From Singulisphaera sp. GP187 (lineage in GTDB: Bacteria > Planctomycetota > Phycisphaerae > Phycisphaerales > SM1A02): 36,464 nucleotides of DNA. Numbering within the stretch: the first letter of the stretch is position 1; every line of letters starts with the position of its first letter. Below, one piece after another: positions 9,767 through 36,171 of the stretch. The DNA lies in the NCBI GenBank assembly GCA_945862215.1, contig CAMAXY010000026.1, forward strand, positions 1-36,464, in the 5' to 3' direction. A program made the translations under genes and the position numbers. The notes under the pieces were generated by a model. It was not told where the DNA came from. It made no database searches and was given only the letters and a program-made list of their open reading frames with translations.

Positions 9767-9800
9767 GGTTGGAGCGATTGGGTTTGGTGCGTGTGAGTGT

Positions 9801-13452: not shown

Positions 13453-13533
<81 letters not shown>

Positions 13534-13557
13534 TTGTTCGCCGATACTCTTGACCAT

Positions 13558-14910: not shown

Positions 14911-14954
14911 CCAACATTCATCCGAGCGAGTTTTCGATATTCTCATCCCTTCAA

Positions 14955-18275: not shown

Positions 18276-18330
18276 TCTAATCGTCGTTCTCCCGCTAGGA
18301 TGTTGCCCCGCGCACAGTGCGTTTTCTCCA

Positions 18331-20013
18331 ATGCCAAAACTGACTATTAACGGCGTCCTTCTTGATTTCGAAAAAGGTCAATCGATCATCGATGTTGCGT
18401 TGAAGAACGAAATCGAGATTCCGCATTATTGCTATCACCCAGGATTGTCGGTGCCAGCCAACTGCCGCATCTGCCTCGCAGAAATCTGGCAGCCGAATGC
18501 GAAGACAGGTCAGCTTGAGGCGATTCCAAAGTTGATGCCGACATGTCATACGCCAGCTGGCGAAGGCATGATCGTTTATACCGATAGCCCCAAGGCGATC
18601 ACCAATCAGAAGGCAGTGATGGAGTATTTACTGATCAACCATCCAGTTGATTGCGCGGTCTGCGATCAGGCTGGTGAATGCCATCTTCAGGATTACTCAT
18701 ATCAATATGGTCGAAGTCAATCGCGCTTTGAAGAAGACAAGATCAAGAATCCCAAGAAGGATGTTGGCGAACACGTTCTTCTTTATAGCGATCGATGCAT
18801 CATGTGCACGCGCTGCGTGCGATTCACCAAGGAAGTCACTCAGACTCACGAGTTGATGGTCGAGGGTCGTGGCGGAACTGAAATGATCGATGTTTTCCCT
18901 GGAATACCACTGAATAATGAACTTTCAGGAAATGTGGTCGACCTCTGCCCAGTTGGCGCTCTCTTGGACAAAGATTTCCTCTTTCAACAGCGCGTGTGGT
19001 TCCTGAAGAAGACGCCTTCAATTGATGGCATCACCGCAAGTGGCGACAATATTTCTATCGAACACAATGAAGGCGTTGTCTATCGCTTGAAGCCTCGAGA
19101 AAATCTGGAGGTGAATCAATGGTGGATCACGGATGAAGTTCGTTATGGTTGGAAATTTGTTCATAGCGAAAGTCGTTTGACGATGCCCGCTGTTCGCGGC
19201 ACCGCAGAATTTGATCGCGCAGATCCTGAAGCAGCATGGAACACAGCAATGGATCGCGCAGTTGAAGTCTTGCAAACTGGCGCACGAAATGGCCGGATCG
19301 CGTTGTTGGTCAGCCCGATGCTCTCCTGCGAAGATGCGTACTTGCTCGGACGAACTGTGCTTGCCATCGATCCATCTGCAGTGCTTGGTGTTGGTCCAGT
19401 TCCAAAGTCTGGGGAAGATCGCACTCTTGCTGGTGGATATACGATTCACTCGGAAAAAGCGCCAAATGCTCGGGGAGTTCGCCGCGTTCTTGCTGCGCTC
19501 GCTGCTGCCGAACCTGCGCGACGCATTGCTGCTGGAAGTCCGACTGTGTGTGACGCCACTGAATTTCTTGCAGCATTGACAACTGCTGGCGCTGGAGTTG
19601 CGTTGATCACTGGAAATTATCCAAGTGAGTGGTCCACAGAGTCATTTGTTCGCGCACTTTCGACGCGACGTTTCGTCTTGCTGGACACTCTGGAAAATCG
19701 GCTGACAGCAGTTGCGGAAAGTTTCTTGCCCGTTGCCACATGGATTGAAAAAGCAGGATGCTTCGAGAACGCAAAGGGTCGTTTGCAATCATTCGAGCGA
19801 GCCATTCAGCCAATCGATTTTGCAAAGTGCGAAGGTCAGATTGCGCTCGATCTCGCAATGCGTCTTTCGGGTGGAAAGACAGCCGTCTATGACGCGGATC
19901 AGGTTCGAAGTCAAATGGCTTTGGTTCCAGGGTTGGCGATGTTTTGTGATCAGGTTCATCATCCGCCAGCTTCGCTTTCACGCGAGAGCGATATGGTGAC
20001 CATCGACCTGTGA
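18331..20013 (+). CDS. nuoG: NADH-quinone oxidoreductase subunit G-like protein (short form)
   Basis: 560 residues. The N-terminal 2Fe-2S ferredoxin ligands are Cys34, Cys45, Cys48 and Cys72. The His-Cys 4Fe-4S site is His104, Cys108, Cys111 and Cys117. The next cluster has Cys156, Cys159, Cys162 and Cys206 (CIMCTRC and LCPVGAL). After residue 220 comes the start of the molybdopterin-oxidoreductase-like domain, then a weakly conserved tail, shorter than the 700-900 residues of many NuoG. It carries electrons from NADH to quinone within complex I in the membrane arm's cytoplasmic part. No other nuo gene is within the window, which is unusual. The ATG at 18331 is chosen because the frame above it has no family sequence. 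Confidence 0.9.
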   Translation: MPKLTINGVLLDFEKGQSIIDVALKNEIEIPHYCYHPGLSVPANCRICLAEIWQPNAKTGQLEAIPKLMPTCHTPAGEGMIVYTDSPKAITNQKAVMEYLLINHPVDCAVCDQAGECHLQDYSYQYGRSQSRFEEDKIKNPKKDVGEHVLLYSDRCIMCTRCVRFTKEVTQTHELMVEGRGGTEMIDVFPGIPLNNELSGNVVDLCPVGALLDKDFLFQQRVWFLKKTPSIDGITASGDNISIEHNEGVVYRLKPRENLEVNQWWITDEVRYGWKFVHSESRLTMPAVRGTAEFDRADPEAAWNTAMDRAVEVLQTGARNGRIALLVSPMLSCEDAYLLGRTVLAIDPSAVLGVGPVPKSGEDRTLAGGYTIHSEKAPNARGVRRVLAALAAAEPARRIAAGSPTVCDATEFLAALTTAGAGVALITGNYPSEWSTESFVRALSTRRFVLLDTLENRLTAVAESFLPVATWIEKAGCFENAKGRLQSFERAIQPIDFAKCEGQIALDLAMRLSGGKTAVYDADQVRSQMALVPGLAMFCDQVHHPPASLSRESDMVTIDL

Positions 20014-21513: not shown

Positions 21514-21672
21514 ATTGGTCGAATTATGCGACTTGGGAAACTTTGTTGAACATGGGCAGTTGGATGTATGCTTCTCGACCCCCCAAGAAATGCTCGGCGC
21601 AGATTTTGGTTGTTCGTACATTTTTCTAGTACAGAGTTTTCACAAGTTCTATCCCAACGAGGTTTTATACGA
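21514..21672 (+). promoter_or_regulatory. 159-base intergenic stretch, probable promoter of the TPR/alpha-CTD gene
   Basis: A candidate promoter is TTGTTG, 18 bases, TATGCT in the first half of the gap. The match is weak and the sigma specificity of this organism is unknown. No hairpin terminator for the MATE gene was seen. Confidence 0.25.
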
Positions 21673-22590
21673 ATGAGTAACGCAACAATCAAGCATGTCA
21701 ATCCAGCGAATCCAACAGCAGCCAAGCCACACATCGATCTCGCAGTTCGTCACGCGAATGAAGGTCGTCGCGAAGAAGCGGTTGCGTCATATCGAACGGC
21801 TCTCGAGTCTGATCGTTCGGTCGCCACTCTTTTCGCATTTGCAAAGTTGCTTGATCGAATGGGGCATGATGAAGAGGCAATCGATTTGTACGAAGAGATC
21901 TGCTATCTCCCAACGCCACCAGTCAATGCGATGATCAATCTTGCTGTGCTGTATGAGGACATGGGAGAACTCGTACGGGCAGAGCGATGCTTGCGCCGTG
22001 TGCTGACTCTGTATCCAAACAACGGTCATGCGCGCATGTATGTCAAAGATGTTTGCGCTGTCAAGACAATGTCGTATGACGCGAATGCTGAACAGCAAAC
22101 TGCGCGACGCAATGCAATTCTTGATACGCCGATCACGGACTTCGAACTTTCTGCTCGTGCGCGAAACTGCCTGAAAAAGGTGGAAATTCGTACGCTTGGA
22201 GATCTCTTGCGCGTCACTGAAGCAGAGTTGATGGCATTCAAAAACTTTGGCGAAACCAGTATCAACGAGATCAAGGCGATGCTCAATTCTCGCGGACTGC
22301 GCTTAGGTCAAGGCCTTGAAGGCGGATTCGAAGAGTCCTATCGTCGCGAATATCTCGATCAATTGCGCACGCAAGTTGCTCCTGAGTTGTTGGAGCAACC
22401 AATCAGCGCACTCGAATTGACGATCCGTGCGAAGAAGGCGGTTCAACTGCTTGAAGTGCGAACGCTTGGCGAACTTGCGTGCCGCACTGAGGCAGAATTG
22501 ATGGGCATGAAGAACTTCGGTTCGACCAGCCTCGACGAAATCAAGGCTCAGCTCGCAACGCACGGACTTTCGCTTCGCGTGATGGAGTGA
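21673..22590 (+). CDS. TPR protein fused to two RNA polymerase alpha C-terminal-like domains
   Basis: 305 residues. Residues 20-120 form about three TPR helices pairs (HANEGRREEAVASYRTAL; DEEAIDLYEEICYLP; RAERCLRRVLTLYPNN). Two copies of the alpha-CTD fold follow, at about 151-212 and 242-303. In copy 1 the E. coli DNA-contact residues Arg265, Asn268 and Cys269 are retained as Arg162, Asn165 and Cys166 (RARNCLKKVEIRTLGDLL), with Gly193 and Ser196 matching Gly296 and Ser299. In copy 2 the Arg is kept (252) but the Asn and Cys positions are Lys255 and Ala256. There is no alpha N-terminal domain, so it is not RpoA. It could bind UP-element-type DNA or RNA polymerase as a regulator; this is inference. 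A strong terminator follows. Confidence 0.88.
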   Translation: MSNATIKHVNPANPTAAKPHIDLAVRHANEGRREEAVASYRTALESDRSVATLFAFAKLLDRMGHDEEAIDLYEEICYLPTPPVNAMINLAVLYEDMGELVRAERCLRRVLTLYPNNGHARMYVKDVCAVKTMSYDANAEQQTARRNAILDTPITDFELSARARNCLKKVEIRTLGDLLRVTEAELMAFKNFGETSINEIKAMLNSRGLRLGQGLEGGFEESYRREYLDQLRTQVAPELLEQPISALELTIRAKKAVQLLEVRTLGELACRTEAELMGMKNFGSTSLDEIKAQLATHGLSLRVME

Positions 22591-22743: not shown

Positions 22744-24354
22744 TCAGAGTCCTGATTTTTCCGATGGCACTTCTTCAGGATGCCAATGTGGAGTCTCGAC
22801 GCCTTCGTACTTCAGCATGGTGCACATTCCAGAATCCGCGTGGTATGGAATGTGGCAGTGGAATGGCCAGATGCCTGGGTTGTCGGCATCAAATGCGATC
22901 TTGATAATTGAATGTGGCGGAACCTCAATCGTGTCGCGCTGGGCGCCGGAGATTGGCTTGCCATCAATTTCAATAACTTGAAATGCGCCATCATGCAGAT
23001 GCATCGGATGACCCATGGGAGTCTTGTTGGTCAACACCATCTCGACACGCTCGCCGAGTTTGACGGTGAGGACGTCTCGAGTTGGATACTTGATCCCATT
23101 GATAAACCATTGATATCCGTCCATGGTTCCACTCAATACAGCAGGCAGCGTGCGATCGATCTTTTTCGTGGCAAGCGGCGCCGTGGCGCGGAGGCGCATT
23201 TCTTGCGTGTTGTCGAGTGCTGCGGTGGTCATCGAGGCTGTTTTTGGAAGCGCAGACATTGCAGCGCTGTCACTTGTTGATCCAGTCGTTAAAACAACTC
23301 CGCAGGTGAGCGTTGTGCCTTCTCCTTGCATCGTGATTGGGAAGACGGCTCCATCACTGGATGTCGTGTTGGAAATCGCTTTGGGTATGGTCACTCGCAG
23401 GTCGATTCGCTGCGCAATTGCCAATTGAAAAAAATTTCCGCTTAGAGGCTGGATCGGCTGACCGTCAACAGCAAGAAGTTCCGCATCAAGGGAACCTGTA
23501 TCGATAAAGAAATCGGTTTCACACGATGCCGCAATGATGCGTAGCAAGACGGTGTCTCCAGGATTCACTTTCATGACATCCGGATCGTCCACTGTGCGGC
23601 GATTTGCGAGCAGTGCATCATATTTGACATCAGTGTTTGCAATTGGAGCATTCACCATGGCGCGAACAAATTGACTGTTCGCTTCGTCCCATTGTTGGGC
23701 GATCACTTGCGGCTGGGTTGCGGTTGGCATTTCTTGCATTCCAGGCATTTCTTTCATTTCCGGCATTGGCTTCGAGCCAGTTTTCATATCCATCGCGGGC
23801 GCGTTGCGAAGACCTTGAAGAATCGCCTCAGGAGATGTGAAAGAAAAATCTGTGAGCGTGATGACGAATTGCTTGTCAGCTTTCGCACGCTCCGCATCGC
23901 TCCAAATGATCATTGGTGCGGAGACAAGGTATTGCTCTTGGAGCGCATAGTGAGAGTGCATCCAATATGTTCCAGTTTCCTTTAGAGGAAAGTCGTATGA
24001 AAAAGTATTGCCAGGCGCAATTGGTTCTTGTGTGACGAATGCAACTCCATCCATCGAGTTTGGCAGCGAAAGTCCATGCCAGTGAATGCTTGTCGGCACA
24101 TTCAGCTGATTGATCACATCAACGTGCATTCCGTCGGCTTGATTGGGGGAATATCCCTGCGTGCCATCAGCTTGCACGACACTTCCCATCATGATGGTCT
24201 TGCCGTTGACAGTCAGTGGAGTTTCGCGAACAAAGAGTTGCACTCGTTTGACATCATCCGGAGACACTTTCGCTGTTGCGGTCGAAGCATTTGCCAAGCA
24301 AAGAAGTGATGTGGTGACAAAAGAAAAGGAAATAAAAGCAGATGTGAAGTGCAT
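22744..24354 (-). CDS. Multicopper oxidase with methionine-rich loop (CueO/laccase type)
   Basis: 536 residues with a signal peptide (residues 1 to about 28), so it acts in the periplasm. All copper motifs are present: HWHG (91-94), HSHY (133-136), HPMHLH (449-454) and HCHIPYHADSGM (499-510), giving type 1 ligands Cys500, His505 and Met510. Residues 188-209 are very rich in Met (MDMKTGSKPMPEMKEMPGM), like the extra copper-binding segment of CueO. Such enzymes oxidise Cu(I) or phenols while reducing oxygen to water. A role in copper tolerance is suggested by the Met-rich loop. It is 93 bases downstream of uricase on the same strand but probably has its own promoter, since a palindrome lies in the gap. 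Confidence 0.93.
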   Translation of the reverse strand: MHFTSAFISFSFVTTSLLCLANASTATAKVSPDDVKRVQLFVRETPLTVNGKTIMMGSVVQADGTQGYSPNQADGMHVDVINQLNVPTSIHWHGLSLPNSMDGVAFVTQEPIAPGNTFSYDFPLKETGTYWMHSHYALQEQYLVSAPMIIWSDAERAKADKQFVITLTDFSFTSPEAILQGLRNAPAMDMKTGSKPMPEMKEMPGMQEMPTATQPQVIAQQWDEANSQFVRAMVNAPIANTDVKYDALLANRRTVDDPDVMKVNPGDTVLLRIIAASCETDFFIDTGSLDAELLAVDGQPIQPLSGNFFQLAIAQRIDLRVTIPKAISNTTSSDGAVFPITMQGEGTTLTCGVVLTTGSTSDSAAMSALPKTASMTTAALDNTQEMRLRATAPLATKKIDRTLPAVLSGTMDGYQWFINGIKYPTRDVLTVKLGERVEMVLTNKTPMGHPMHLHDGAFQVIEIDGKPISGAQRDTIEVPPHSIIKIAFDADNPGIWPFHCHIPYHADSGMCTMLKYEGVETPHWHPEEVPSEKSGL

Positions 24355-24447: not shown

Positions 24448-25383
24448 TCACCACGCTGGCCAAGTGTGCGTCGGAGCAGGCGCCGATGATGCAGAAGTTG
24501 TCTTCGCATCATCCCGCTCAATGACAGCTTCGATCAACCCGTATGGTCTGTCCGCGGCGATGAAAACTTCGTTGTGGTTCTCGCGGTCGAAAGCCGAAAG
24601 ATCGACTGCGAAGTGATGCTTGTTTGGAAGTGAGAGTCGAATGGCAGCAATTTCAGGCTGATTGGACAGAACGCGCTCGCCCATCAAGAAAAGAGTTTGC
24701 TGCAATGAAAGACTGTGATGTTCGGCGAAAGCGCCCAGCATCGTGTCGACCGTGTCACGAAAGTTTTTTGCCCAATCAATGCGGTCAAACTTCAATGATT
24801 CTGAAGCAGAAATCCTCCAACGCGCACAGACTTCCGTTGCCATGATTCGGTCGGTGGTTTGGGCAAGAGTTGTATATTTATCACGTAGAAATCCACCAAA
24901 TTCGCTCTTGCTTGTCTTCAGGATCACCAAATCATCAAGTCCGCAGACAATAAAATCTTTCGTCTGTGCACCATCTCGGCAGACGAGCGCAGTCGCCGTT
25001 CGTGTCATCGATCCATTTCTTCGAAACGCGCTGGGATGTGGCTTGCCCTTGGAAATGATTCGGTCCCAATCAAACTTTTCAATGCGGACTTCAGCTTTCA
25101 AGACATGCGATTGCGCTGCAACAAAATGTCGTGCCAGCAACAAGCCGAAGGCTTCCGGCTCCATTGCGCCGTACTCATGGGAAAAAACGAACACGGTGTT
25201 TTTCATCGCATCGGTGGTGAGCACTTGCGTGTTGTCGCCAGTCAAGTGTGTCGCCGAGAAATCACCGCTCAATAAAACAGTCACATTCAGGTCTAGGACT
25301 TCATGCGTATCGCCGCTTCGCGTGACTCGAAAAACCCTGATTTCTGCTTTGCCATATCGATTTTCGCCAAGGATGATCGCCAT
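24448..25383 (-). CDS. Urate oxidase (uricase)
   Basis: 311 residues, normal for the cofactor-free enzyme. The catalytic lysine is Lys12 in NRYGKAEIRVF, and the partner Thr is Thr57 in VLTTDAMKNTVF. NKHHFAVDL near residue 255 holds the active-site His, and SEFGGFLRDKYTTL and NQPEIAAIRLSLPNKHH are family signatures. It oxidises urate with oxygen to 5-hydroxyisourate and makes hydrogen peroxide. The C-terminal 20 residues (TSASSAPAPTHTWPAW) are a low-complexity tail. The ATG at 25383 follows a GAGG site by 9 bases and lies 2 bases after the HIU hydrolase stop; a TTG at 25389 is a less likely start. It takes the next step after xanthine dehydrogenase, which is encoded 5 kb away. Confidence 0.96.
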   Translation of the reverse strand: MAIILGENRYGKAEIRVFRVTRSGDTHEVLDLNVTVLLSGDFSATHLTGDNTQVLTTDAMKNTVFVFSHEYGAMEPEAFGLLLARHFVAAQSHVLKAEVRIEKFDWDRIISKGKPHPSAFRRNGSMTRTATALVCRDGAQTKDFIVCGLDDLVILKTSKSEFGGFLRDKYTTLAQTTDRIMATEVCARWRISASESLKFDRIDWAKNFRDTVDTMLGAFAEHHSLSLQQTLFLMGERVLSNQPEIAAIRLSLPNKHHFAVDLSAFDRENHNEVFIAADRPYGLIEAVIERDDAKTTSASSAPAPTHTWPAW

Positions 25384-25385
25384 GT

Positions 25386-25754
25386 TCAACTGCCTCGATA
25401 GGTTGAATATCCAAACGGGCTGAGCAGCAGTGGCACGTGGTGATGTCGATTTGAATCACTTGCCTTAAATTCGATCGTCACTTGGGGGAAGAAACAATCT
25501 TGGCCGCGTTGGGCGAACCATGAGCCAGCGTCAAAGATCAGTCGAAAATTTCCTGCGCTGAGTGGTCCCTTGGAAAATCCATGCGCGCGCCCGTCTGCAT
25601 CAGTGCGGGATTCGTGTCGGTCGATCCAGACGCCACCTTCAAGTGATTGAAATCGTACGTTCATATCCGCTGCAGGATCGCCAGTTGCTGTGTTCAAGAC
25701 ATGAGTTGAAAGTCCAAGTGCGGCGAGAGGTGTCACGCAGTCAGAATAAATCAT
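25386..25754 (-). CDS. 5-hydroxyisourate hydrolase (transthyretin-like)
   Basis: 122 residues, right for the family. LSTHVLNTATGDPA (about 16-29) holds the catalytic His18, TDADGRAHG carries the conserved Arg, and the C-terminus is YSTYRGS, the family end signature. It hydrolyses 5-hydroxyisourate, the uricase product, to OHCU. OHCU is the substrate of the second domain of the divergent fusion protein. The gene is the first of the uricase operon and is 55 bases from the start of the fusion gene. Confidence 0.96.
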   Translation of the reverse strand: MIYSDCVTPLAALGLSTHVLNTATGDPAADMNVRFQSLEGGVWIDRHESRTDADGRAHGFSKGPLSAGNFRLIFDAGSWFAQRGQDCFFPQVTIEFKASDSNRHHHVPLLLSPFGYSTYRGS

Positions 25755-25809: not shown

Positions 25810-27849
25810 ATGAGCGGATGCGGAGTCGTGGATTGCGCAGAGATTCCAACGTACCGAGATTTTATTTCGCGTGAATTGCTGATCTATCTTGCCGATCAAC
25901 TGAAACCAGTTGAAGGCGTGGCGGATATGTGGCAAGTTGGCGCAAGTGGGGGATTGGAAAGTACCGAATCGCTGCAGTTTCTCTGCGAACTCTATCAAGT
26001 TATAAAACCACATTTGCGGGAAGTCTTGCAACAGCGAGTCGCCGACCGAGCATTCATCGACGAACGCACTCAAGCATGCTTCGAACTGAACTCTTCACTG
26101 AACATTGCATTTCACGATCCCAATTACCGAACCGTCCTCGGTCAAGAAGATGCTGAGGGAAAAGTTGTCGTCGGTCCGCTGAGCGAATTCTTTTGTCGAT
26201 CAGGCGGCGGGAAGCCCATTGCTTTGGTTCCAGAATTTTTGCGTGGGGAGCATGTGACTCTCTTTGGTCCGCCGGATGATGCAAAGCTTTCGATCAACGC
26301 AATGAATGCATTTCATCGCAAGCTTGATGGCGAGCCAGCGATTGTTGAAGAGTTGCTAAAGAACTTCAGCGGCTGCGCAAAGTGGGGAGCGGACGACGAA
26401 GATTCCAAGACGCCGTTGCGTCGCGACTTGATCTTGGCGGGCGAGAATTTGACGGGCTGTCTGCAACGGACGATCTCATATGTTGATGCGCGTACTGGCA
26501 AGGATTATCGAGTGGCGTCATCGCAAATTTCCTTGCCAATCAAGCGTTTTCCAGGACTTGCGATGCCCTGTCCATTTCTATTTCTGGGTGACAATCCATT
26601 GCCTCTGCATCTGTATGACTTCGCACTTCATCTGTTTGCGAATTGGAATAATCCTCAGGCGCTTGTGTTCTATGTTCCAAAGTTGGAGACACAAGAAGAG
26701 GCTGCATACATCCGCATGATGATCGAGAACGCAGAGCGAATGATTTGCGCCAGACATTCTCAGTACAAGATCGGCACAATTCGAGTGATGGTCGTCCTTG
26801 AAAATCCGCGTGCAGTCTTTCGGATGAACGAGATCATGGACGAGTTGCATCCATACTTTGCTGGCGCATCGCTTGGCTGGCACGATTTTCTTGCATCGAC
26901 TGCACGCTTGATGAAGAATGATGGCAACTATCGAATTCCAGTCAAGGCTGATCCGAACATAGTCATCAACAACATCAAGGCATCTCATGATTTGCTCGCC
27001 GAAGTTGTAGGTTCTCGCGGTGGCATCAAAGTAGGCGGTATGTATGGAGTGCTTCCATCAGATGGTGATATGCGGAGTGCTTCTTTCCAAGTTGCTATCA
27101 AAGGATTCATCAAAGATGTGATCACGCAGATGAAGCGGAATCTGGATGGATTTTGGGTCGCGCATCCAGATTTTGTGCGGCTTGGAATTGCACTTGTTGA
27201 AGCATGGAAACACTCGGTGCAAGGGGAAGGCGCGGTGCTTGATGACTTGATACGCGCGTTGCTGATTCCAGAACATCAACGCGAGGTGTTGGATTTCATT
27301 CATGGACCCGATGTGCGTGGACTTGATCGAGAAGATCCTCTGTACGCGCGTTCGATTCTGGTTGCGGATGGGCGTGGATCTGGAACTGTCGTCAATAACG
27401 ACCCAGAAGAGATTCGGTACAACATTTTTCAGTCGTTGCAATATCTGACTGATTGGCTCTGCGGAAATGGATGCGTTGCGCTTCCAGCAAGCATCGATGG
27501 CATACCTGTGCGAGTGATGGATGATCTGGCAACGGCAGAGCGATCACGATGGGAAGTCTGGCACGAACTCCATTATGGCCGCTTTCATTCTGAGGACTTT
27601 GTGCGTATCACACACGAGGAATTGCATTTCATTCGCAAGAATCTTTCTGCTGGCAGCAAGATCGTGCAAGTGAAGTGGGATGATCGGACGCGCAAGTGGT
27701 ATCGCGTTGCGATGAACATCATGATGCAGTTGATGGCAAGCGACGCACCCGTCGAATTCGCCACCGAATTGTTGTTGCCATTTACACTCGAAACCATTCG
27801 CCGTGAAGATGATCCTTGGGTCGCCGCACAAACAATCGAGCCGAAGAAG
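25810..27849 (+). other. Domain 1 of the fusion: malate synthase A
   Basis: Residues 1-680 follow E. coli malate synthase A through YDFALHLF (269-276), VPKLETQEEA, GTIRVMVVLENPRA with Arg325 and the metal ligand Glu331, Asp359 in GWHDF, DGFWVAHPDF (446-455), and NGCVALPA. Asp572 in MDDLATAERSRWEVW aligns with the catalytic base Asp of MEDAATAEISR. The region is about 150 residues longer than the usual enzyme, with a short insert at about 560-567 and longer N-terminal part. Confidence 0.93.
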
Positions 27850-30576
27850 TATCAAATCCCCAAGCGAGTCGCACGATTGCATGCATTCTTTTCCGTGTGT
27901 GCAAGCCGAAGATTTGCAGCGCAGATGGCGCTTGACTCGGTTGTCAATCTGCGTTCGGCGGAAGATTTGGTGCGAAGTTTCACCCTTGATGAGATCAACG
28001 AAGCAGCTTGTTTTCATGGTGATATTGGTGAGTCTGCGCAGTCACTCGATGCAACCGCTGCACAAGAGCAAGCGCGCGTGCTTCAGAAGTCTGCGGGCGC
28101 CGTTGGTCAGGGGGAGGAACTTCTCGCCCTTGGTCGCACGTATCGAGAGCGATTTAGTTTCAAGTTCTTGATCGCAGCAAAGGGGCGATCGGGATCGGAA
28201 CTTCTTGATGCGCTCAAAGAGCGAATGAATCACACGCAGAGCGAGGAAATCGAAAACGCACGCGAAGCACTTTGGCAGATCACGAAAGGTCGTTTGGAGT
28301 CGGCGCCGTTGGATACTGTCCAGCGCGACCTTGCAGATGCCCTCGCGAAACATGGCGTGCATGGTGCGTCGATCAGCATAACGCAAGATGGAAAGCACAT
28401 TCAAGAATTGCAATTCGGTCATCGTGATGCGCTAAATCCTGTGACTGGACAAACACTTTTCGAGATTGCATCGCTCAGCAAGAGCATCGGTACATGTTTC
28501 GCTATGGAATATTTTCGTTTGTCGGAAACGCCACTTTCAACTCCAGTCAACACGCTCTTCGGCAAGACTGCGTCTACGTTTCGAATTCGATCGCTCGATG
28601 CAAATCACCCAGAGTGGGCAGATCAAGTGACCATCGCACATCTGTTGTCGCATCAGGCGTTGAATATGCACTATGTCAACGGCATCCCCGCCAACGAAAT
28701 GATGCCGCCGATTGGGGAATTGCTCGTCGGCAACTCGCGATATGGATATGAGCCAATCGGGGTGATCAATGCGCCGGGCACGAAATTCCAATATTCAGGC
28801 GGGGGATTTTTGGCGCTTCAGCATTTGATCGAAAGCATCGAGCACGCGCCGATCCATAAAGTGATGGATGGATTCCTGCGCAAACTTGCGATGAATTCGT
28901 GTTCGTTCGAGGAATCTTCACTTGGTGAAAGAGAATGTGCGAGCGGATTTCTTGATTCTGGAAAAGTAGTCCAAGGAACACGAAAGATTTTTCCTGCGCT
29001 TGCTGCTGGTGCTGTTTCGAACGCATCAGATGTCTTGCGATTTCTGACTGCACTTGCTCGCGCCCGTCATGATCTCGGTGGATGCGGCCCGATTTCTCAT
29101 GACACTGCAGTGCGAATGCTGCATGGAATCGATAAGGGGTCTCGAGAGTTCATGGGATGCATAATGGGTCTTGGAATTTTTATTGCCGAAGCCGGATCAA
29201 ATCGACTTTCGATTCATCAAGGATCGAACGATGGGTTCCGTGCGCTGTTTATTCATTGCCACGCTGGTCCCGATGCGGGAAAAGGATTTGTTGTGCTTTG
29301 TAATAGCGATGATGCGGGGATGCGTTTCAATGCCAAGGCCGCGCAAATCATCTTAAAACATTTTGCAATGCAAGGCGTTTCCTGCGAACGATTTCAGAGT
29401 GATATTGCAGGAGGTAACGCGCGTACTCTGGAAAGCATTGAGCAAGTGCAGCGAGTGAATGTTGGATATCGAGAACTTGTTTTCGCTGCATTTGAACAGG
29501 ACCTTCCCGAAGAAATCGTCGATCGCGGTCCTCGTGATCCCCTTTCGGATTTTAATCTTGCTGTTGGGGCACAGGTTCTGTCTGCTTCAAATCAGCGATT
29601 TGCACGAGCAGAAAACTTGATCTCGCCAAATCTGCCAACATTCGAACCAGCACTCTTTGGTAAGCAAGGGAAAATCATGGATAGTTGGGAGACGGTTCGT
29701 CACAATCCTCTTGGAGGTGATTGGATGATTTTCGAGATGGCTTCGCAGTCGGCGATCGACTGCGCTGCGATCTCAACACAGTTTCATCTTGGAAATCATG
29801 CGGAGGAATTTGATCTCGAAGGTTTGGATTCGTTGTCTGGTGAATGGCAGGCAATCGTTCCTCGAATGCAATTGTTTGGTCACTCACAGCATGCAGTCAA
29901 GACTGTGTGTGGCGATAAAAAGTTTCGTCGCCTACGAGTGCGGATATATCCAGATGGCGGATTGACGCGCTTGGCTCTGTATGGGAAAAATTTGCCCGTT
30001 CAAGAGAAAGAAAAACTTTTTATTCAGCCGATTCGTCAATATCCTGCATTCGACTCCCAGACTCGAAAACCAATGACTCCAAAGTATGTGGCGAATGTCG
30101 CAGAGATTGATGCCAACTTTGCTGCAAACAGATCACAGCATCGTGGTGGAGAAGTGGATATCGCAAGCGCTGCCTTCGGCGGTCGTGTGATCTCTGCATC
30201 GAATGAACACTATTCGCCTGCTGTCCAAGTCATCTCGCCCTATCCGCCGCTGAATATGGTCGATGGTCTGGAATCTGCCCGCACTCGAGTGGCTGGGCAC
30301 AGCGAAAATGTGGTGGTCGCACTTGGTCGCACTGCGAAAATCGCACGAATCGAACTTGATTTCACGCGATTTGTGAACAATAATCCGCAGGAGATTTCAG
30401 TGGATGGTTTGTGCGCAGGGAAGTGGGTCACGCTTGTTGTACGAACGAATGTCAAAGCATTCGCAGGCAACGCTATCGCCTTTGCTGTCGAGAGCAGTGA
30501 GCAGTGCGAGCAAGTCCGCGTGACCGTGTTCCCAGATGGCGGAATCAACCGTGTTCGCGTCCTTTCTGCAGTATGA
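25810..30576 (+). CDS. Four-domain ureide-catabolism fusion: malate synthase, OHCU decarboxylase, serine hydrolase, allantoicase
   Basis: 1588 residues in one uninterrupted frame. The order is malate synthase A (about 1-680), OHCU decarboxylase (about 685-830), a beta-lactamase/class C-type serine hydrolase (about 835-1195) and allantoicase with both internal repeats (about 1220-1588). Catalytic residues of each part are kept, as listed in the domain entries. OHCU decarboxylase yields S-allantoin, allantoicase turns allantoate into ureidoglycolate and urea, and malate synthase uses glyoxylate plus acetyl-CoA. No signal peptide or membrane helix is present, so it acts in the cytosol. It is first of the operon with xdhA, xdhB and xdhC and is divergent from uricase and HIU hydrolase. 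A sequencing error joining separate genes is unlikely over four domain borders. The ATG at 25810 is the first start codon in the frame. Confidence 0.95.
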   Translation: MSGCGVVDCAEIPTYRDFISRELLIYLADQLKPVEGVADMWQVGASGGLESTESLQFLCELYQVIKPHLREVLQQRVADRAFIDERTQACFELNSSLNIAFHDPNYRTVLGQEDAEGKVVVGPLSEFFCRSGGGKPIALVPEFLRGEHVTLFGPPDDAKLSINAMNAFHRKLDGEPAIVEELLKNFSGCAKWGADDEDSKTPLRRDLILAGENLTGCLQRTISYVDARTGKDYRVASSQISLPIKRFPGLAMPCPFLFLGDNPLPLHLYDFALHLFANWNNPQALVFYVPKLETQEEAAYIRMMIENAERMICARHSQYKIGTIRVMVVLENPRAVFRMNEIMDELHPYFAGASLGWHDFLASTARLMKNDGNYRIPVKADPNIVINNIKASHDLLAEVVGSRGGIKVGGMYGVLPSDGDMRSASFQVAIKGFIKDVITQMKRNLDGFWVAHPDFVRLGIALVEAWKHSVQGEGAVLDDLIRALLIPEHQREVLDFIHGPDVRGLDREDPLYARSILVADGRGSGTVVNNDPEEIRYNIFQSLQYLTDWLCGNGCVALPASIDGIPVRVMDDLATAERSRWEVWHELHYGRFHSEDFVRITHEELHFIRKNLSAGSKIVQVKWDDRTRKWYRVAMNIMMQLMASDAPVEFATELLLPFTLETIRREDDPWVAAQTIEPKKYQIPKRVARLHAFFSVCASRRFAAQMALDSVVNLRSAEDLVRSFTLDEINEAACFHGDIGESAQSLDATAAQEQARVLQKSAGAVGQGEELLALGRTYRERFSFKFLIAAKGRSGSELLDALKERMNHTQSEEIENAREALWQITKGRLESAPLDTVQRDLADALAKHGVHGASISITQDGKHIQELQFGHRDALNPVTGQTLFEIASLSKSIGTCFAMEYFRLSETPLSTPVNTLFGKTASTFRIRSLDANHPEWADQVTIAHLLSHQALNMHYVNGIPANEMMPPIGELLVGNSRYGYEPIGVINAPGTKFQYSGGGFLALQHLIESIEHAPIHKVMDGFLRKLAMNSCSFEESSLGERECASGFLDSGKVVQGTRKIFPALAAGAVSNASDVLRFLTALARARHDLGGCGPISHDTAVRMLHGIDKGSREFMGCIMGLGIFIAEAGSNRLSIHQGSNDGFRALFIHCHAGPDAGKGFVVLCNSDDAGMRFNAKAAQIILKHFAMQGVSCERFQSDIAGGNARTLESIEQVQRVNVGYRELVFAAFEQDLPEEIVDRGPRDPLSDFNLAVGAQVLSASNQRFARAENLISPNLPTFEPALFGKQGKIMDSWETVRHNPLGGDWMIFEMASQSAIDCAAISTQFHLGNHAEEFDLEGLDSLSGEWQAIVPRMQLFGHSQHAVKTVCGDKKFRRLRVRIYPDGGLTRLALYGKNLPVQEKEKLFIQPIRQYPAFDSQTRKPMTPKYVANVAEIDANFAANRSQHRGGEVDIASAAFGGRVISASNEHYSPAVQVISPYPPLNMVDGLESARTRVAGHSENVVVALGRTAKIARIELDFTRFVNNNPQEISVDGLCAGKWVTLVVRTNVKAFAGNAIAFAVESSEQCEQVRVTVFPDGGINRVRVLSAV
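27862..28299 (+). other. Domain 2 of the fusion: OHCU decarboxylase
   Basis: Residues 685-830. His736 in FHGDIG stands for the HP-x-IG catalytic His, with Pro replaced by Gly. Glu753-Gln754 in AQEQARV match the SxxEQ pair, and FKFLIAAKGRS (785-794) is the substrate loop. The domain is of normal length for the family. Confidence 0.9.
28312..29394 (+). other. Domain 3 of the fusion: serine beta-lactamase-fold hydrolase
   Basis: Residues 835-1195. The SxxK nucleophile pair is Ser888 and Lys891 (IASLSKS). The second motif is Tyr995 in QYSGGG, with the usual Asn of YxN replaced by Gly. The third is HQG (1136-1138) in place of KTG/HxG. The fold class hydrolyses amides and esters. No domain of this type is part of the known purine pathway. 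Confidence 0.88.
29467..30573 (+). other. Domain 4 of the fusion: allantoicase
   Basis: Residues 1220-1588. Two related halves are seen: GAQVLSASNQRFARAENLIS with DSWETVRHN, FHLGNHAEEFDLEG and RVRIYPDGGLTRLALYG, then GGRVISASNEHYSPAVQVISP with DGLESAR and RVTVFPDGGINRVRV. Both are the repeats of allantoicase, which cuts allantoate to ureidoglycolate and urea. Confidence 0.93.
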
Positions 30577-30630
30577 ATTTTGCGGTTCGATTTTGGTGCA
30601 GTGCAACCACTCGGTGCTACGATCGCCACG

Positions 30631-32112
30631 ATGCGTGATTTCGCACTAATCCATCTGAATGGCGTGCGCCGAGAGATTCGCGGTCGTGAAGCATTGATGA
30701 TGCTTGCAGAATGGTTGCGAAAAGAAGCGGGATTGAGTGGAACGAAGATCGTTTGCGCTGAAGGCGATTGTGGTGCATGCACCGTGCTTCGGGCTTCTTG
30801 CCATCCGAGTTCTCACTCTGATCAATATCTGAATTTCGAGGCGATGAATTCCTGCATCGCAACAGTTGCTCAAATGGATGGGACGCACATCGTCACCGTA
30901 GAGGGGATGCAGTGCGGCGATCACTTATCGCCCGCACAAGAAGCGATGCGTACATGTCATGCATCGCAGTGTGGGTATTGCACTCCAGGATTCGTGATGG
31001 CGATCAGCGCAATGTTGGAACGGCACGATCAAGCAGATGCACGCACTGCATCCAATTATCTCACGGGAAATCTCTGCCGATGCACTGGATATGCACCGAT
31101 TGTTGAAGCTGCTCTCACGGTACGAGCAACCGAGAAGCATTCAGTCGCGCGTCGATATTCGGATCCGCATTCAATTTCAGAGTCAGTTTCGTCCACGAAG
31201 TTATCGATGTTGGTCGAGTATGACGGCACGAAACTTTTCGCCCCCGTTTCGCTGCGAGAGGCGGTCACATTTTCTGCGACACATCCTGGGACGCGTGTGC
31301 TTGGTGCCGCAACTGATCTTGGCGTGCAAGTGAACAAGGGAAAGCCTCTTCCGACTTCACTCTTAAGCCTTCACTTGATCCCCGAACTTTACGAAACAAA
31401 ATTGACGCGCAGTCGAGTGACATTTGGATCGCGTGTCACGCTTGCCGAAGTACGACGAATCAGCGAAGATGTAGCGCCAGAGTTTGCGCGATTCCTGAAT
31501 CTCTTTGCGTCGCCGCAAATCAAGAATGTGGCAACGCTCGTTGGCAACATCGCCAACGGATCTCCCATTGGCGATACGTTGCCATTTCTTCTGATCGCCG
31601 GCGGCGAAGTGCATGTTGCAAGTAGACCTGGTGCCAAGGGCGTGGTCCGCAAGCGCAAAATCCCGATGACCGAGTTGTATGTTGGCTATAAAAAACTTGC
31701 TCTCGAGATTGGGGAAATCATCACCCATATCAGCTTCGATCGAACTTCTGCAAAGGAAGTGATGAGTCTTTGCAAAGTCACGCAACGCAAAGATCTTGAT
31801 ATTAGCGCAGTGAGCGGCGCATTTTCGCTCACTCTGAAATCGAGCCTCAAAGCAAGTCGCAATGGAAAAACTGCGCCGCATGTTGTCTGTGCACGAATCG
31901 CATACGGCGGCGTTGCTGCGACGCCACTACGTATGCCAGAAGTCGAGCTTGCACTTTGCGGCGAATTGACTGCTGAGCGGATTGAATCTGTTTCGCAAAT
32001 GATTGCTCGTTCTATCAAGCCGATTTCAGATGTACGAGGCAGCGCGTCCTATCGACGAGTGGCAGCCGCAAATCTTTTTCGCCGATTTGGCAATGAGGTC
32101 CTTCATGGCTGA
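30631..32112 (+). CDS. xdhA: Xanthine dehydrogenase small subunit (2Fe-2S and FAD)
   Basis: 493 residues. The first 2Fe-2S site has Cys42, Cys47, Cys50 and Cys75, the second has Cys114, Cys117, Cys149 and Cys151 (QCGYCTPG and LCRCTGY). From about 200 onward comes the FAD domain with ATDLGVQV and VGNIANGSPIGD. The subunit passes electrons from the molybdenum site to NAD. The ATG at 30631 fits the family start MRDFALIHLNG; the open frame to a TTG at 30580 would add 17 residues. It lies 54 bases after the fusion gene and overlaps xdhB by 8 bases, so all are co-transcribed. Using hypoxanthine/xanthine is supported by the uricase neighbourhood. Confidence 0.95.
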   Translation: MRDFALIHLNGVRREIRGREALMMLAEWLRKEAGLSGTKIVCAEGDCGACTVLRASCHPSSHSDQYLNFEAMNSCIATVAQMDGTHIVTVEGMQCGDHLSPAQEAMRTCHASQCGYCTPGFVMAISAMLERHDQADARTASNYLTGNLCRCTGYAPIVEAALTVRATEKHSVARRYSDPHSISESVSSTKLSMLVEYDGTKLFAPVSLREAVTFSATHPGTRVLGAATDLGVQVNKGKPLPTSLLSLHLIPELYETKLTRSRVTFGSRVTLAEVRRISEDVAPEFARFLNLFASPQIKNVATLVGNIANGSPIGDTLPFLLIAGGEVHVASRPGAKGVVRKRKIPMTELYVGYKKLALEIGEIITHISFDRTSAKEVMSLCKVTQRKDLDISAVSGAFSLTLKSSLKASRNGKTAPHVVCARIAYGGVAATPLRMPEVELALCGELTAERIESVSQMIARSIKPISDVRGSASYRRVAAANLFRRFGNEVLHG

Positions 32113-34585
32113 TCAGACGCGAACGCCTGTTCCAATGTCGACGCTGATTAGCGATCACGGTTCCCCATCGCATGATTCTTCGATCACGCATGTCACGGGA
32201 AAGTCGGAGTATGTCGACGACCGGCCGATGATCAAAGGCGAACTTCACTGCGGGTTGGTCTATAGCCCATATGCGCATGCTCGAGTTGTTCGCCTTGAAA
32301 CTGCGCCTGCGTTAAAAATTCCTGGAGTGATCTGTGCTGTCACTGCAAGTGATGTTGTGCATAATTTGTGGGGAAGCATTTTTCAAGATCAGCCAATCAT
32401 CGCTGCAGGCGAGGTTCATTATGTTGGCGAGGTTGTTGCCGTGGTCGGAGCAGAAACCAAGGAAGCGTTAGTAAAGGGATTGGCTGCTGTCATTGTCGAG
32501 TGGGAGAAACTTGCAGATATTCGCTCGATTTCGCAGGCAGTTGCCGCGAATAGTTTTATTGGTTCGCTGCGCACTATTTCAACTGGCGATATGGAGGGCG
32601 CGCTCGCAAGCGCCACTCACCGAATTTCTGGCACGCTTGAAATCGGCGGTGCGGATCATTTTTATCTTGAGAGTCAAGCGGTTGTTGTTTATCCAAAGGA
32701 AGATGGTCAACTTGAAGTGCACTCTTCGACGCAGCATCCGACTGAGACCCAACATGTCGTTGCTGAGGCGTGTGGTCTACGTTTCAGTGATGTGGTCTGC
32801 ATTGCAAAGCGTCTTGGCGGCGCTTTTGGCGGCAAAGAATCGCAGGCGTCACCAATCGCCGCATACGCCGCACTCATTGCCAAGCGAAGTGGTCGACCTG
32901 CGCGCTTGGCACTAACGAAGGATGATGACATGATCATCACTGGAAAGCGAAATCCATTTCAAATTGATTATCGTTGCGGCTTCGATGGCAAAGGAAAGAT
33001 TCTTGCGCTTGATGCGATGTTGCACTCTGACGGCGGCGCTTATGCCGATCTTTCAACTGCGATCATGGAGCGCGCTCTCTTGCACTGCGATAACGCGTAT
33101 TCAATTGCGAACATGCGCGTGCGTGGTCAAGTCTGTCGTACGAATTTTCATCCACACACAGCATTTCGCGGATTCGGCGGGCCCAAAGGTGTTGCCATGA
33201 TCGAGTCAATCATTGAAGACATCGCTCGTGTTGTTGGCCGCGATGCGCTGGATGTTCGCACGCTCAATTGCTATGGCCAGACTCAGGACATCACTCATTA
33301 TGGCCAGCGCGTAGAGAACAATCATCTGCCTGCGCTCTTTGCATCACTCGAGAATCGCTGCGAGTATCGAAAAAGGCGTGAAGATATTCGTGTTTGGAAC
33401 GCGGAGCGATTGCATGAAAACAACGCGCCCGTGCGCGGTCTCTCGATGACAGCGGTCAAGTTTGGCATTTCATTCACCACACGTTTTCTCAATCAAGGGA
33501 ATGCCCTTGTGAATGTCCACCGCGATGGGACGGTGCAAGTTTCGACGGGTGCCGTCGAGATGGGGCAAGGTGTGAATTCACGCATTGCGTCAATTGTTGC
33601 GCAGCAGTTTGGGTTACAGGTGTCGAGCGTGCGCATGATGCCGACATCGACAGAAAAAAACGCCAATACATCTCCGACCGCTGCATCGACTGGAACGGAT
33701 ATCAATGGCGCTGCGGCAGCGAAAGCCTGTGAATCGATTTGCAGTCGACTTGCGGCATTGGCGATTCAACTCCGATCAATTCCAGCAGAACTGTGGGCGA
33801 CGAAGACGGCGGGTTTGGGCACAATGCCAGAGATCATTGTTGGCGATGGCGTCGGTCCAAATGGAACGGATGATCAACGCGTGGAATTCACTGGTGGCCA
33901 TGTCACCGTGACGGATCGATCTGGCGCAGTGTTTGCAATTGGCTTTGCAGATTTAATCCGCGATGCGTATCGCAATCGGATCTCCCTGAGTGACTATGGC
34001 TATTACACAACTCCAAATCTTGGCTTTGACAAAGTGCAAGGCAAGGGCAATGCGTTTTTGTATTTCGCGCAAGGCGTCGCAGCAAGTGAAGTCGAGCTTG
34101 ACCCAGACACTGGCGAAGTGAAGGTTCGGCGCGTTGACATATTGATGGACTTGGGCAGACCAGTGAATCACGCGCTTGATATGGGGCAAGTGATGGGTGG
34201 ATTTATTCAGGGGATGGGATGGGTCACAACTGAACATCTTGTATATGACAATAATGGCAAGTTGCTTTCTCATTCGCCAAGCACGTACAAGATTCCAAAT
34301 GTGCAAGACACTCCCCGCGTTTTCAACGCTGATTTGATTTTCAACGAGGGCAATACACAGAACATCCGAGGATCGAAAGCCTCGGGCGAGCCACCATTGC
34401 TCCTGTCGCTTTCAGTGTGGACCGCAATTCGCGATGCAATTATGTCGGCGCGCAATCATTCAACAACAGGAAAAGTGCAGCTTGTCCCACTGGCAATTCC
34501 AGCAACAGCAGAGCGAGTGTTGCGCGGACTCTCACCAGAATCATTCGCCATCTGGGATGCGCAAGAAGCAAGTGGTGTCCATTGA
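32105..34585 (+). CDS. xdhB: Xanthine dehydrogenase large (molybdopterin) subunit
   Basis: 826 residues, normal for XdhB. GGADHFYLESQ, FGGKESQA, TAFRGFGGPKG, VEMGQGVN and KASGEPPLLLS are molybdenum-cofactor and substrate motifs; the catalytic Glu is residue 762. It hydroxylates hypoxanthine and xanthine to urate. Start ATG overlaps the xdhA stop by 8 bases. The next gene is the maturation factor xdhC, and moaB and moaC lie just beyond, so enzyme and cofactor genes are grouped. Confidence 0.96.
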   Translation: MADQTRTPVPMSTLISDHGSPSHDSSITHVTGKSEYVDDRPMIKGELHCGLVYSPYAHARVVRLETAPALKIPGVICAVTASDVVHNLWGSIFQDQPIIAAGEVHYVGEVVAVVGAETKEALVKGLAAVIVEWEKLADIRSISQAVAANSFIGSLRTISTGDMEGALASATHRISGTLEIGGADHFYLESQAVVVYPKEDGQLEVHSSTQHPTETQHVVAEACGLRFSDVVCIAKRLGGAFGGKESQASPIAAYAALIAKRSGRPARLALTKDDDMIITGKRNPFQIDYRCGFDGKGKILALDAMLHSDGGAYADLSTAIMERALLHCDNAYSIANMRVRGQVCRTNFHPHTAFRGFGGPKGVAMIESIIEDIARVVGRDALDVRTLNCYGQTQDITHYGQRVENNHLPALFASLENRCEYRKRREDIRVWNAERLHENNAPVRGLSMTAVKFGISFTTRFLNQGNALVNVHRDGTVQVSTGAVEMGQGVNSRIASIVAQQFGLQVSSVRMMPTSTEKNANTSPTAASTGTDINGAAAAKACESICSRLAALAIQLRSIPAELWATKTAGLGTMPEIIVGDGVGPNGTDDQRVEFTGGHVTVTDRSGAVFAIGFADLIRDAYRNRISLSDYGYYTTPNLGFDKVQGKGNAFLYFAQGVAASEVELDPDTGEVKVRRVDILMDLGRPVNHALDMGQVMGGFIQGMGWVTTEHLVYDNNGKLLSHSPSTYKIPNVQDTPRVFNADLIFNEGNTQNIRGSKASGEPPLLLSLSVWTAIRDAIMSARNHSTTGKVQLVPLAIPATAERVLRGLSPESFAIWDAQEASGVH

Positions 34586-34590
34586 CAATC

Positions 34591-34595
34591 GGGAG
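34591..34595 (+). promoter_or_regulatory. Ribosome binding site GGGAG of xdhC
   Basis: It is 6 bases before the ATG at 34602 and fixes this start against the longer open frame from 34434, which overlaps xdhB. Confidence 0.6.
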
Positions 34596-34601
34596 TACAC
34601 A

Positions 34602-35423
34602 ATGAGTTGTTCGATGCGTGAATATCTTCAACATGCAAGCGCACTCGTCGAGCGAGGCGCAGTCTTTGTCACCGTCACGCTTGTTGAGCCTGAAGGACAC
34701 GTTCCGCAAGATATTGGTGCAAAAGCGATCATCACTGCGAGTGGACTTGCATGGGGAACTGTCGGCGGCGGTCGGCTTGAGGCGCGCGCAATTACCCATG
34801 GGCAAGCGATGATCTCTCGCCAAGTTGCGGGAGCAATTCCTGCTGCTGCGGTCCAATCAGAAATTGTTCGATATGAACTTCTTCGCGACTTGAATATGGT
34901 TTGTGGCGGAGCTGCAACTTTGTTTTATGAAATCTCTGCGCTACCGAATTGGAATATCGCACTCTTCGGTGCGGGGCATGTTGCGCAAGCGACACTTTCG
35001 CTTCTTTGCACATTCGAGTGCAGTTTGACCTGCATTGATCCACGCGATGAATGGCTCGCAAAAATTGCCTCGCGGCCCAATGTGTGCAAGATGCTTGTCG
35101 GAGAACCTGCGGAGTATGTTTCGAAGTTGCCTGCAGGAACATTTTATCTTTGTATGTCGCAAGGTCATGCAACCGACTTGCCGATCGTGCGCGAAATTCT
35201 CCGGCGAGGTGACGCCGCATTCATCGGCGTCATCGGCAGCGAGCCAAAGTCACGAACGCTGCGCAGCACGCTTCTCAAAGAGGGATTTGATGAATTGATG
35301 GTTGGGAGAATTCATTGCCCGATCGGTCTGCCAATTGGATCAAATTCCCCGCCAGAAATCGCAGTCAGCATCGCCGCACAACTCTTGCAAGAGCGCGACG
35401 TGATCAGGAAAAGTGTCGTTTGA
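34602..35423 (+). CDS. xdhC: XdhC, xanthine dehydrogenase molybdenum cofactor maturation protein
   Basis: 273 residues. TVGGGRLE (53-60), MVCGG (99-103), and the Rossmann-type ALFGAGHVAQ (120-129) with a later GVIGSEPKSR are XdhC signatures. XdhC binds the molybdenum cofactor, aids its sulfuration and inserts it into XdhB; it acts in the cytosol. It begins 16 bases after xdhB. The last gene of this operon ends before a short spacer and the convergent moaB. Confidence 0.94.
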   Translation: MSCSMREYLQHASALVERGAVFVTVTLVEPEGHVPQDIGAKAIITASGLAWGTVGGGRLEARAITHGQAMISRQVAGAIPAAAVQSEIVRYELLRDLNMVCGGAATLFYEISALPNWNIALFGAGHVAQATLSLLCTFECSLTCIDPRDEWLAKIASRPNVCKMLVGEPAEYVSKLPAGTFYLCMSQGHATDLPIVREILRRGDAAFIGVIGSEPKSRTLRSTLLKEGFDELMVGRIHCPIGLPIGSNSPPEIAVSIAAQLLQERDVIRKSVV

Positions 35424-35634
35424 TATCGACCCACTACCCGTCGTAGTGCCGGCGCGAATCGTTGAATTTCCAGTGGAAAAGCTAGCGCACTTTCAGTCAT
35501 TGGTGGCACGCGTGCGTTTCGCAGCAAATCCAATTTCAGTTTGTGTCTGCGAAATGATTTGGAAAGGGGGAGCGTGCGCGAAACAGGCGCGATCAATCCT
35601 TGTGATGGATGATTCGCCCCACTCCCGAACCTGA
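35413..35634 (+). CDS. Possible small protein, low confidence
   Basis: 73 residues from a GTG that overlaps the xdhC stop by 11 bases. It overlaps the end of the convergent moaB by 42 bases. I see no known domain. It contains cysteines (SVCVCEMIW, GACAKQ) and might be only an open stretch in a 169-base gap. Confidence 0.2.
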   Translation: MSFDIDPLPVVVPARIVEFPVEKLAHFQSLVARVRFAANPISVCVCEMIWKGGACAKQARSILVMDDSPHSRT

Positions 35635-36171
35635 ACCTGATCCATCTTGCCCGGTTGCATCCAACTCTGGCCGGCCATCATCTTTGACATCGCCACGCAG
35701 CGTCTCAATCGCATGTGGAAGAATGTCTGCGATCGCCTCAAACATTTCGGTGGACCCGCGCGGCGAACCAGGAAGGGTGATGACCAAAGTTTGATGGATC
35801 GTTGCAGCAATCCCACGTGACAGAAAAGTCCGAGGCGTTTTCTGCAAGCAGCGCAGTCGCGAAAGGTCCATCAAGCCAGCATGTTCGCGGTGCATCACGG
35901 CGCGTAGCGCTTCGGGAGTGATGTCGCGCGGCGCGAGACCAGTGCCGCCAGTACTCAGTATCACATCAACCGAATGTGCTGGCTGTGACCAATTGACAAA
36001 AAACTTTGAGAGTGCAGAGAGATCGTCTGGCAAACATTCCTTGTGAACGATTTCGGCGTGCAGGTGTTTGATTGCAAGTGATTCCAGCGTTGGTCCCGAT
36101 GTGTCGACAGCATCGCCACGAGAGCAGCGATCACTGACAGTCAAGATGACGGCACGGATCGCGCCGGTCAT
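35593..36171 (-). CDS. MogA/MoaB-type molybdopterin adenylyltransferase
   Basis: 192 residues. The motifs ILTVSDRCSRG (9-19), STGGTGLAPRDITPEA (73-88) and LPGSPRGSTEMF are the family's nucleotide and molybdopterin site. It adenylates molybdopterin before molybdate is inserted. The C-terminal end is Gly/Ser-rich (TGQDGSGSGSGVG). It overlaps the upstream moaC stop by 4 bases (ATGA). It converges on xdhABC, whose enzyme needs this cofactor. Confidence 0.93.
   Translation of the reverse strand: MTGAIRAVILTVSDRCSRGDAVDTSGPTLESLAIKHLHAEIVHKECLPDDLSALSKFFVNWSQPAHSVDVILSTGGTGLAPRDITPEALRAVMHREHAGLMDLSRLRCLQKTPRTFLSRGIAATIHQTLVITLPGSPRGSTEMFEAIADILPHAIETLRGDVKDDGRPELDATGQDGSGSGSGVGRIIHHKD

Follow-up and report, generated by a model that had tools for sequence, protein, structure and literature searches.

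A malate synthase, OHCU decarboxylase, serine hydrolase and allantoicase chain at a planctomycete urate locus, and its candidate allantoinase domain

The fused gene and its urate locus

The window, i.e., the whole stretch of 36,464 nucleotides analyzed here, contains an open reading frame of 1588 codons without any internal stop (Table 1). Pfam gave matches above the curated cut-offs to MS_TIM-barrel (residues 259-460, E 2.9e-20) and MS_C (residues 533-652, E 1.7e-10) of malate synthase, to the Beta-lactamase family (PF00144, E 1.2e-25) and, in two stretches, to Allantoicase (E 3.4e-53); an OHCU decarboxylase domain was found as well. Frame and Pfam matches agree with a first-pass annotation of this DNA, which had described a single 1588-residue protein composed of these four enzyme domains.

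Table 1. The fused gene, its parts and neighboring genes in the window
Feature	Position	Strand	Basis or remark
Whole fused gene	25810..30576	+	Open frame from ATG to stop, 1588 aa
Malate synthase part, residues 1 to about 663	25810..27798	+	Pfam, 3cuz alignment, conservation
OHCU decarboxylase domain, residues 692-830	27883..28299	+	Pfam OHCU_decarbox E 1.1e-20, 5uou alignment
Beta-lactamase/PBP-type serine hydrolase, residues 839-1180; candidate allantoinase	28324..29349	+	Pfam, PDB profile search
Allantoicase repeat 1, residues 1253-1393	29566..29988	+	PF03561
Allantoicase repeat 2	30178..30570	+	PF03561
5-Hydroxyisourate (HIU) hydrolase, transthyretin family	25386..25754	-	PF00576 E 1.3e-33; divergent from the fusion
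Uricase	24448..25389	-	PF01014 E 1.6e-54
Xanthine dehydrogenase small chain, 2Fe-2S and FAD domains	30580..32112	+	Family deduced from its domains and the locus
Xanthine dehydrogenase molybdopterin chain, start codon uncertain	32003..34585	+	
XdhC-type protein, start codon uncertain	34434..35423	+	
Molybdopterin-binding (MoaB/Mog-type) protein	35593..36171	-	PF00994

The fused domains are divergent members of their families, since NCBIfam equivalog models matched the same parts below their cut-offs. The malate synthase part was recognized by PF01274 and PF20659 above cut-off, while it gained 137 of the 594.5 bits set for TIGR01344. Upon alignment with malate synthase A (3cuz), its residues R246, E331, D359 and D572 were found opposite the matching residues, Asp572 being paired with the MED-motif Asp, and all four were invariant in 22 distinct rows. 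We take them to be the Arg, the Mg-binding Glu/Asp and the catalytic Asp of the enzyme. The OHCU decarboxylase domain scored 75.2 bits with PF09349 (cut-off 24) and 69.5 of 139.4 bits with TIGR03180. In the alignment with OHCU decarboxylase 5uou, His736 fell on the HPRIG-motif His, and Glu753 had its counterpart as well. Both residues, presumably the catalytic His and Glu, were the same in all 21 distinct sequences; exceptions concerned Glu741, which was replaced in four of the 21, and residue 793, an Arg or Lys that is Phe in G013. The serine hydrolase domain obtained 90.8 bits with PF00144 (cut-off 27). Its residues S888-x-x-K891, the presumed serine-hydrolase motif, as well as Y995 and H1136-x-G1138 were invariant in all 21 distinct sequences and correspond to SxxK, Tyr and K/HxG, which we take to be the catalytic motifs of the PF00144 superfamily. 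In the allantoicase part (197.2 of 277.9 bits with TIGR02961) the DxWE/RH and PDGG motifs could be aligned with 1sg3 and were invariant in the sequences covering them; His1330 was Gln or Glu in four of 21. Conservation was judged on 22 rows in the case of the malate synthase part and on 21 in that of the remaining domains, four duplicates being uncounted, G508 being left out and G507 stopping before the OHCU decarboxylase. Asp572, His736, Ser888/Lys891 and both allantoicase repeats, which the first-pass annotation had pointed out, were all recovered in this way. Two AlphaFold models had mean pLDDT values of 38.1 and 40.8, too poor for inspection of active sites; the value of 38.1 is the one bearing on the fold membership of the serine hydrolase.

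The fused gene is embedded in a urate-pathway neighborhood. HIU hydrolase was the divergent neighbor at all 21 fusion loci whose 5' side was in hand, and uricase adjoined it at 12 of these 21, while XdhA directly followed the fusion at 12 of the 20 loci with the 3' side in hand; the counts derive from stretches of 1.8 kb to several kb, with uricase and XdhA judged by adjacency only (g41 genomes; XdhA in G569). Among the 19 genomes of the genus (g1), uricase occurred in exactly the same five as the fusion (p 8.6e-5, ignoring shared descent). The tie of the chain to urate breakdown, which had been proposed at first sight of the domains, was therefore borne out by its uricase, HIU hydrolase and xanthine dehydrogenase neighbors. 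The locus is predicted to encode the route from xanthine via urate, HIU and OHCU to allantoin, and further on the conversions of allantoate to ureidoglycolate and of glyoxylate to malate.

Some other genes at these loci should be mentioned. In three g41 loci the fusion is followed by a PF00383 deaminase (L113, 13058-13534; L114, 11991-12467; L029, 9870-10376), plausibly a guanine deaminase that may feed xanthine into the pathway. A multicopper oxidase gene (22744-24354, minus strand) adjoins uricase in the window and had no homologue in the stretches around the other fusion loci. At locus L119 of genus g38, oligopeptide-type ABC transporter genes lie beside uricase, and a gene for a DUF3891 protein follows XdhC (1763-5920 and 16884-17795). 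The patchy occurrence of uricase and allantoicase within genus g1 (G000-G018), in the same five of 19 genomes, points to repeated loss or transfer.

Distribution of the chain and selection on its domains

The fusion is conserved among relatives. When the 181 genomes of the family were searched with an alignment of the chain (A1), it was found, whole or in part, in 23 genomes belonging to four genera (five in g1, 13 in g41, four in g38 and one in g42). All of these genomes are drafts, 67-98% complete. Near-full-length chains were present in 18 of them; of the five partial ones, those of G559, G501, G507 and G508 stop at contig ends, the contigs of G507 and G508 holding only the malate synthase part, and that of G506 is in two pieces, one of which begins at a contig end (L033). 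Seventeen of the 18 near-full-length rows were devoid of stop codons, and the sole TAG, in G005, marked the end of the match and is the gene's own end. A tblastn search against 61 genomes (the own genome and 60 relatives) detected the chain in four further members of the genus, with identities of 83, 65, 52 and 49%. A scan of GTDB contigs yielded six loci, four of them assigned to Planctomycetia and two to an uncultured bacterium; one (L028) is the same contig as in G016. An A1 search among 392 genomes of the phylum disclosed one further fusion genome, G405.

The first-pass annotation had named the presence of the parts as separate genes in related genomes as a finding that would speak against the fusion. 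This turned out negative, as allantoicase occurred in five of the 19 genus genomes and always within the fused frame. An assembly error or frameshift merging separate genes is rejected for practical purposes, since the chain recurs in relatives as one open frame, with 18 near-full-length copies across four genera; no support for such an artefact was found.

All domains are under purifying selection. For five sequence pairs, dN/dS ratios (Nei-Gojobori) of 0.04-0.18 were determined for both allantoicase repeats and for each of the three enzyme domains preceding them, with values up to 0.67 for the linker at residues 1398-1448. Pairwise distances of the four domains correlated with each other (r 0.93-0.97, 18 sequences), as expected of one unit that is inherited together. 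It is very likely that the fusion genomes descend from a single fusion event.

Several matches did not represent fusions. Five other hits of the phylum search at E <= 1e-30 proved to be separate malate synthases (three) or serine hydrolases (two), and the stretches around these five genes contained no other homologue of the urate-pathway proteins of the window. A 1553-codon open frame in G040 was rejected as a related fusion: it encodes a malate synthase-isocitrate lyase protein of 1552 aa adjoining AceK (L027, 3836-8494, minus strand; other family, same order). In a plasmid collection searched by tblastn, 204 records matched, but in no record did a single place account for 80% of the query; among the 40 that were listed, all matches lay within residues 45-722, mostly in the malate synthase part. 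Viral contigs gave no match. The five fusion genomes of the genus each yielded one tblastn match with the fused protein and hence no second malate synthase, though a malate synthase G could escape this search.

The step from allantoin to allantoate

OHCU decarboxylase yields allantoin, while allantoicase needs allantoate. Without an allantoinase, the chain would therefore skip a step. The interpretation given in the first-pass annotation stands with regard to a genuine four-domain chain, its tie to urate and malate synthase as a sink, but it had overlooked this gap between allantoin and allantoate.

The allantoinase search covered the AllB and PuuE models. AllB (TIGR03178) was not found above cut-off in any of 11 distinct fusion genomes (six plus six tested, one of them shared because L028 equals G016), the best matches all lying below, nor in any of the 19 genomes of the genus. 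A PuuE-type allantoinase was not found in any of the five fusion genomes tested. As a control we used genomes with a separate allantoicase. Allantoicase exceeded its cut-off in 12 of 392 genomes of the phylum, of which ten are not fusions; G334, whose allantoicase match was below cut-off, was left out of these ten. AllB scored above cut-off in nine of the ten, always beside allantoicase. The one genome without it, G065, has a completeness of 66% and gave only a partial AllB match of 169.7 bits, and two of the nine AllB matches (G124, G103) contain one TGA. The contrast between fusion genomes and genomes with separate allantoicase had a Fisher p of 3.4e-5, but it is close to one observation, a single evolutionary replacement, because a common ancestor with the fused gene is very likely for the fusion genomes.

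The surroundings of separate allantoicase genes were examined in 11 stretches of 6-19 kb, and neither the malate synthase nor the serine hydrolase of the fusion had a homologue there. Four of the 11 contained allantoicase and OHCU decarboxylase in one frame, which was confirmed by Pfam for L124. This presumably is the protein that NCBIfam names bifunctional allantoicase/OHCU decarboxylase (NF010371/PRK13797). It shares two domains with the chain and likewise lies in a urate cluster, together with AllB and HIU hydrolase. It differs, however, by having the allantoicase first, by a length of about 500 aa, by the lack of malate synthase and serine hydrolase and by the adjoining AllB. With NF010371, the 1588-aa chain achieved 165 of 814 bits.

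Fusions among enzymes of purine catabolism are known from other organisms as well. According to an excerpt of PMC3646786, Cryptococcus neoformans possesses a fusion of allantoicase and ureidoglycolate hydrolase, likewise a fused ureide-catabolic enzyme with allantoicase; as described there, it combines consecutive steps only and is devoid of malate synthase, OHCU decarboxylase and serine hydrolase. Malate synthase-isocitrate lyase fusions, as in G040, have been reported from nematodes, Euglena and Anaeromyxobacter (excerpt of PMC1630690). In them, as in the chain, malate synthase is joined to its supplier of glyoxylate, but they serve the glyoxylate cycle, whereas the chain belongs to purine breakdown. 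The first-pass annotation had let malate synthase use up the glyoxylate formed in urate breakdown. Such a sink makes sense, and it has been proposed in print for yeast Dal7, which is attributed to purine degradation but encoded by a separate gene (excerpt of PMC3743077), and for animal malate synthase (excerpt of PMC8919083). Among the open-licence literature matches listed, no title or beginning of an abstract mentioned the four-domain combination or an allantoinase of beta-lactamase fold.

Possible roles of the serine hydrolase domain

As AllB did not reach its cut-off in the tested fusion genomes and stood beside the separate allantoicases, the serine hydrolase became a candidate for the allantoinase step. 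It is the only domain without an assigned step, it directly precedes allantoicase, its motifs are kept in 21 of 21 sequences, and its chemistry would fit a hydantoin ring. By elimination, the domain may be a non-homologous allantoinase of beta-lactamase fold, for which we consider the chances about even.

We propose the following route. OHCU would be supplied by the products of the flanking genes (xanthine dehydrogenase, uricase and HIU hydrolase) and turned into (S)-allantoin by the OHCU decarboxylase domain. The serine hydrolase would then open the hydantoin ring to allantoate via an acyl-enzyme, as beta-lactamases do with a cyclic amide, a chemistry that should suit this ring, and would replace the metal-dependent AllB. 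Allantoicase would split allantoate into urea and ureidoglycolate, from which glyoxylate and urea would arise either by the same allantoicase domain or by spontaneous decay, and malate synthase would finally combine glyoxylate with acetyl-CoA to malate. All catalytic activities of the chain, above all the allantoinase role, are inferred. That one polypeptide covers the later steps of urate breakdown and also disposes of the product, with the serine hydrolase as allantoinase, seems to us a matter that could fall either way. The fuller claim, a single chain leading from OHCU to malate whose embedded domain is a metal-independent allantoinase and a third non-homologous solution beside AllB and PuuE, probably has slightly less than an equal chance of being correct. 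Channeling along the chain, as put forward in the first-pass annotation, is possible; the order of the domains differs from that of the reactions.

The PF00144 beta-lactamase family comprises esterases, peptidases and amidases. With class C beta-lactamases, DD-peptidases and EstB-type enzymes of this family the fused domain has SxxK, Tyr and HxG in common, and its PDB profile matches were chains named beta-lactamase and D-Ala-D-Ala carboxypeptidase. It differs from these relatives in being embedded in a metabolic chain and in showing no signal sequence by eye. With the beta-lactamase models that matched it, the domain remained far below the cut-offs (at best 33.4 of 415 bits, with the class C model NF033085), so that the label of a resistance gene would be wrong for it. 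AllB shares the proposed reaction and the neighboring allantoicase with the fused domain but belongs to another Pfam family (PF01979), and its chemistry is metal-dependent according to an excerpt of PMC9863593. Fusions in purine catabolism are known; the serine hydrolase domain may represent a new enzyme class.

Given the breadth of PF00144, the domain might instead be an esterase, amidase or peptidase acting on an unrelated substrate, the ring being opened spontaneously or by an allantoinase that escaped recognition in incomplete drafts, for which the AllB and PuuE models were the only ones searched. We consider this rather unlikely, because purifying selection acts on the domain as it does on its neighbors, the motifs are retained in each of 21 sequences, and allantoicase comes directly after it.

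Another amidohydrolase encoded elsewhere could take over the step. Genes scoring 263-281 bits with the AllB model were present in 11 of the 19 genus genomes, including four of the five with the fusion, and in eight of 11 fusion genomes overall. Those of G000, G004, G005 and G011, the last without fusion, reached 520-530 bits with the dihydropyrimidinase model (cut-off 393) and were rejected as AllB, being dihydropyrimidinases by NCBIfam, while the other genes of this level were assigned by similar score alone. A fragment at a contig edge in G000 is also dihydropyrimidinase-like; a G000 gene of about 200 bits was likewise rejected as AllB, being a dihydroorotase by NCBIfam, and the best match in G405 had 215 bits. 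A real urate-catabolic fusion in which such a dihydropyrimidinase opens allantoin and the serine hydrolase acts otherwise is nevertheless unlikely. The gene occurs also in seven genus genomes without uricase or allantoicase, and the fusion genomes G013 (95% complete) and G573 gave only matches of about 200 bits and none at the dihydropyrimidinase level; the fusion protein of G573 is identical to that of G509, so that both presumably are the same genome, 95% complete. In G000, the dihydropyrimidinase gene lies near genes for methylmalonate-semialdehyde dehydrogenase and PreA, both above their cut-offs, and the dihydropyrimidinase PA0441 of P. aeruginosa does not hydrolyze allantoin (Table 3 in an excerpt of PMC4437985). 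In G005 the gene is followed by an NCS1 nucleobase transporter that did not reach the allantoin permease models. As the NCS1 family includes allantoin permeases, this link is ambiguous and counts somewhat in favor of the dihydropyrimidinase.

It is quite improbable that the serine hydrolase serves the following step instead, with ureidoglycolate or a related ureide as its substrate. The five fusion genomes tested gave no match to ureidoglycolate lyase (PF04115) at E <= 1, which would be in line with such a role; but allantoin ring opening would then be left without an enzyme, ureidoglycolate is labile, and the title of a 1970 paper by Gravenmade et al. reportedly calls it an allantoicase substrate. 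Finally, a domain that is idle, as a spacer or oligomerization platform, or that cleaves the chain into separate enzymes is highly improbable: although the chain is long and its sequence would be compatible with processing, none of the 21 sequences departs from Ser, Lys, Tyr and HxG, while the identity of the domain falls to 41% (18 sequences), and self-cleavage is not known from the PF00144 family.

If the serine hydrolase indeed acts as allantoinase, the chain would be a natural multi-enzyme protein coupling the salvage of purine nitrogen directly to central carbon metabolism, and serine-hydrolase allantoinases would form a new enzyme class, a prediction that is easily assayed. A genome without any recognizable allantoinase might then still hold a complete urate pathway, and the annotation of an intracellular 'beta-lactamase' might conceal an enzyme of purine catabolism.

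Elsewhere in the window, a 987-aa frame (7223-10186, minus strand) had no Pfam match at E <= 0.001, a NuoG-like iron-sulfur protein is encoded at 18058-20013 (plus strand), and the gene at 21568-22590 (plus strand) combines two stretches of the RNA polymerase alpha C-terminal domain with TPR repeats, an odd pairing. Two adjacent ketosynthase genes (14907-16295 and 16292-17632, plus strand), the first being the weaker match, directly follow a class II DAHP synthase gene (13495-14910) and may form a small biosynthetic cluster with it.
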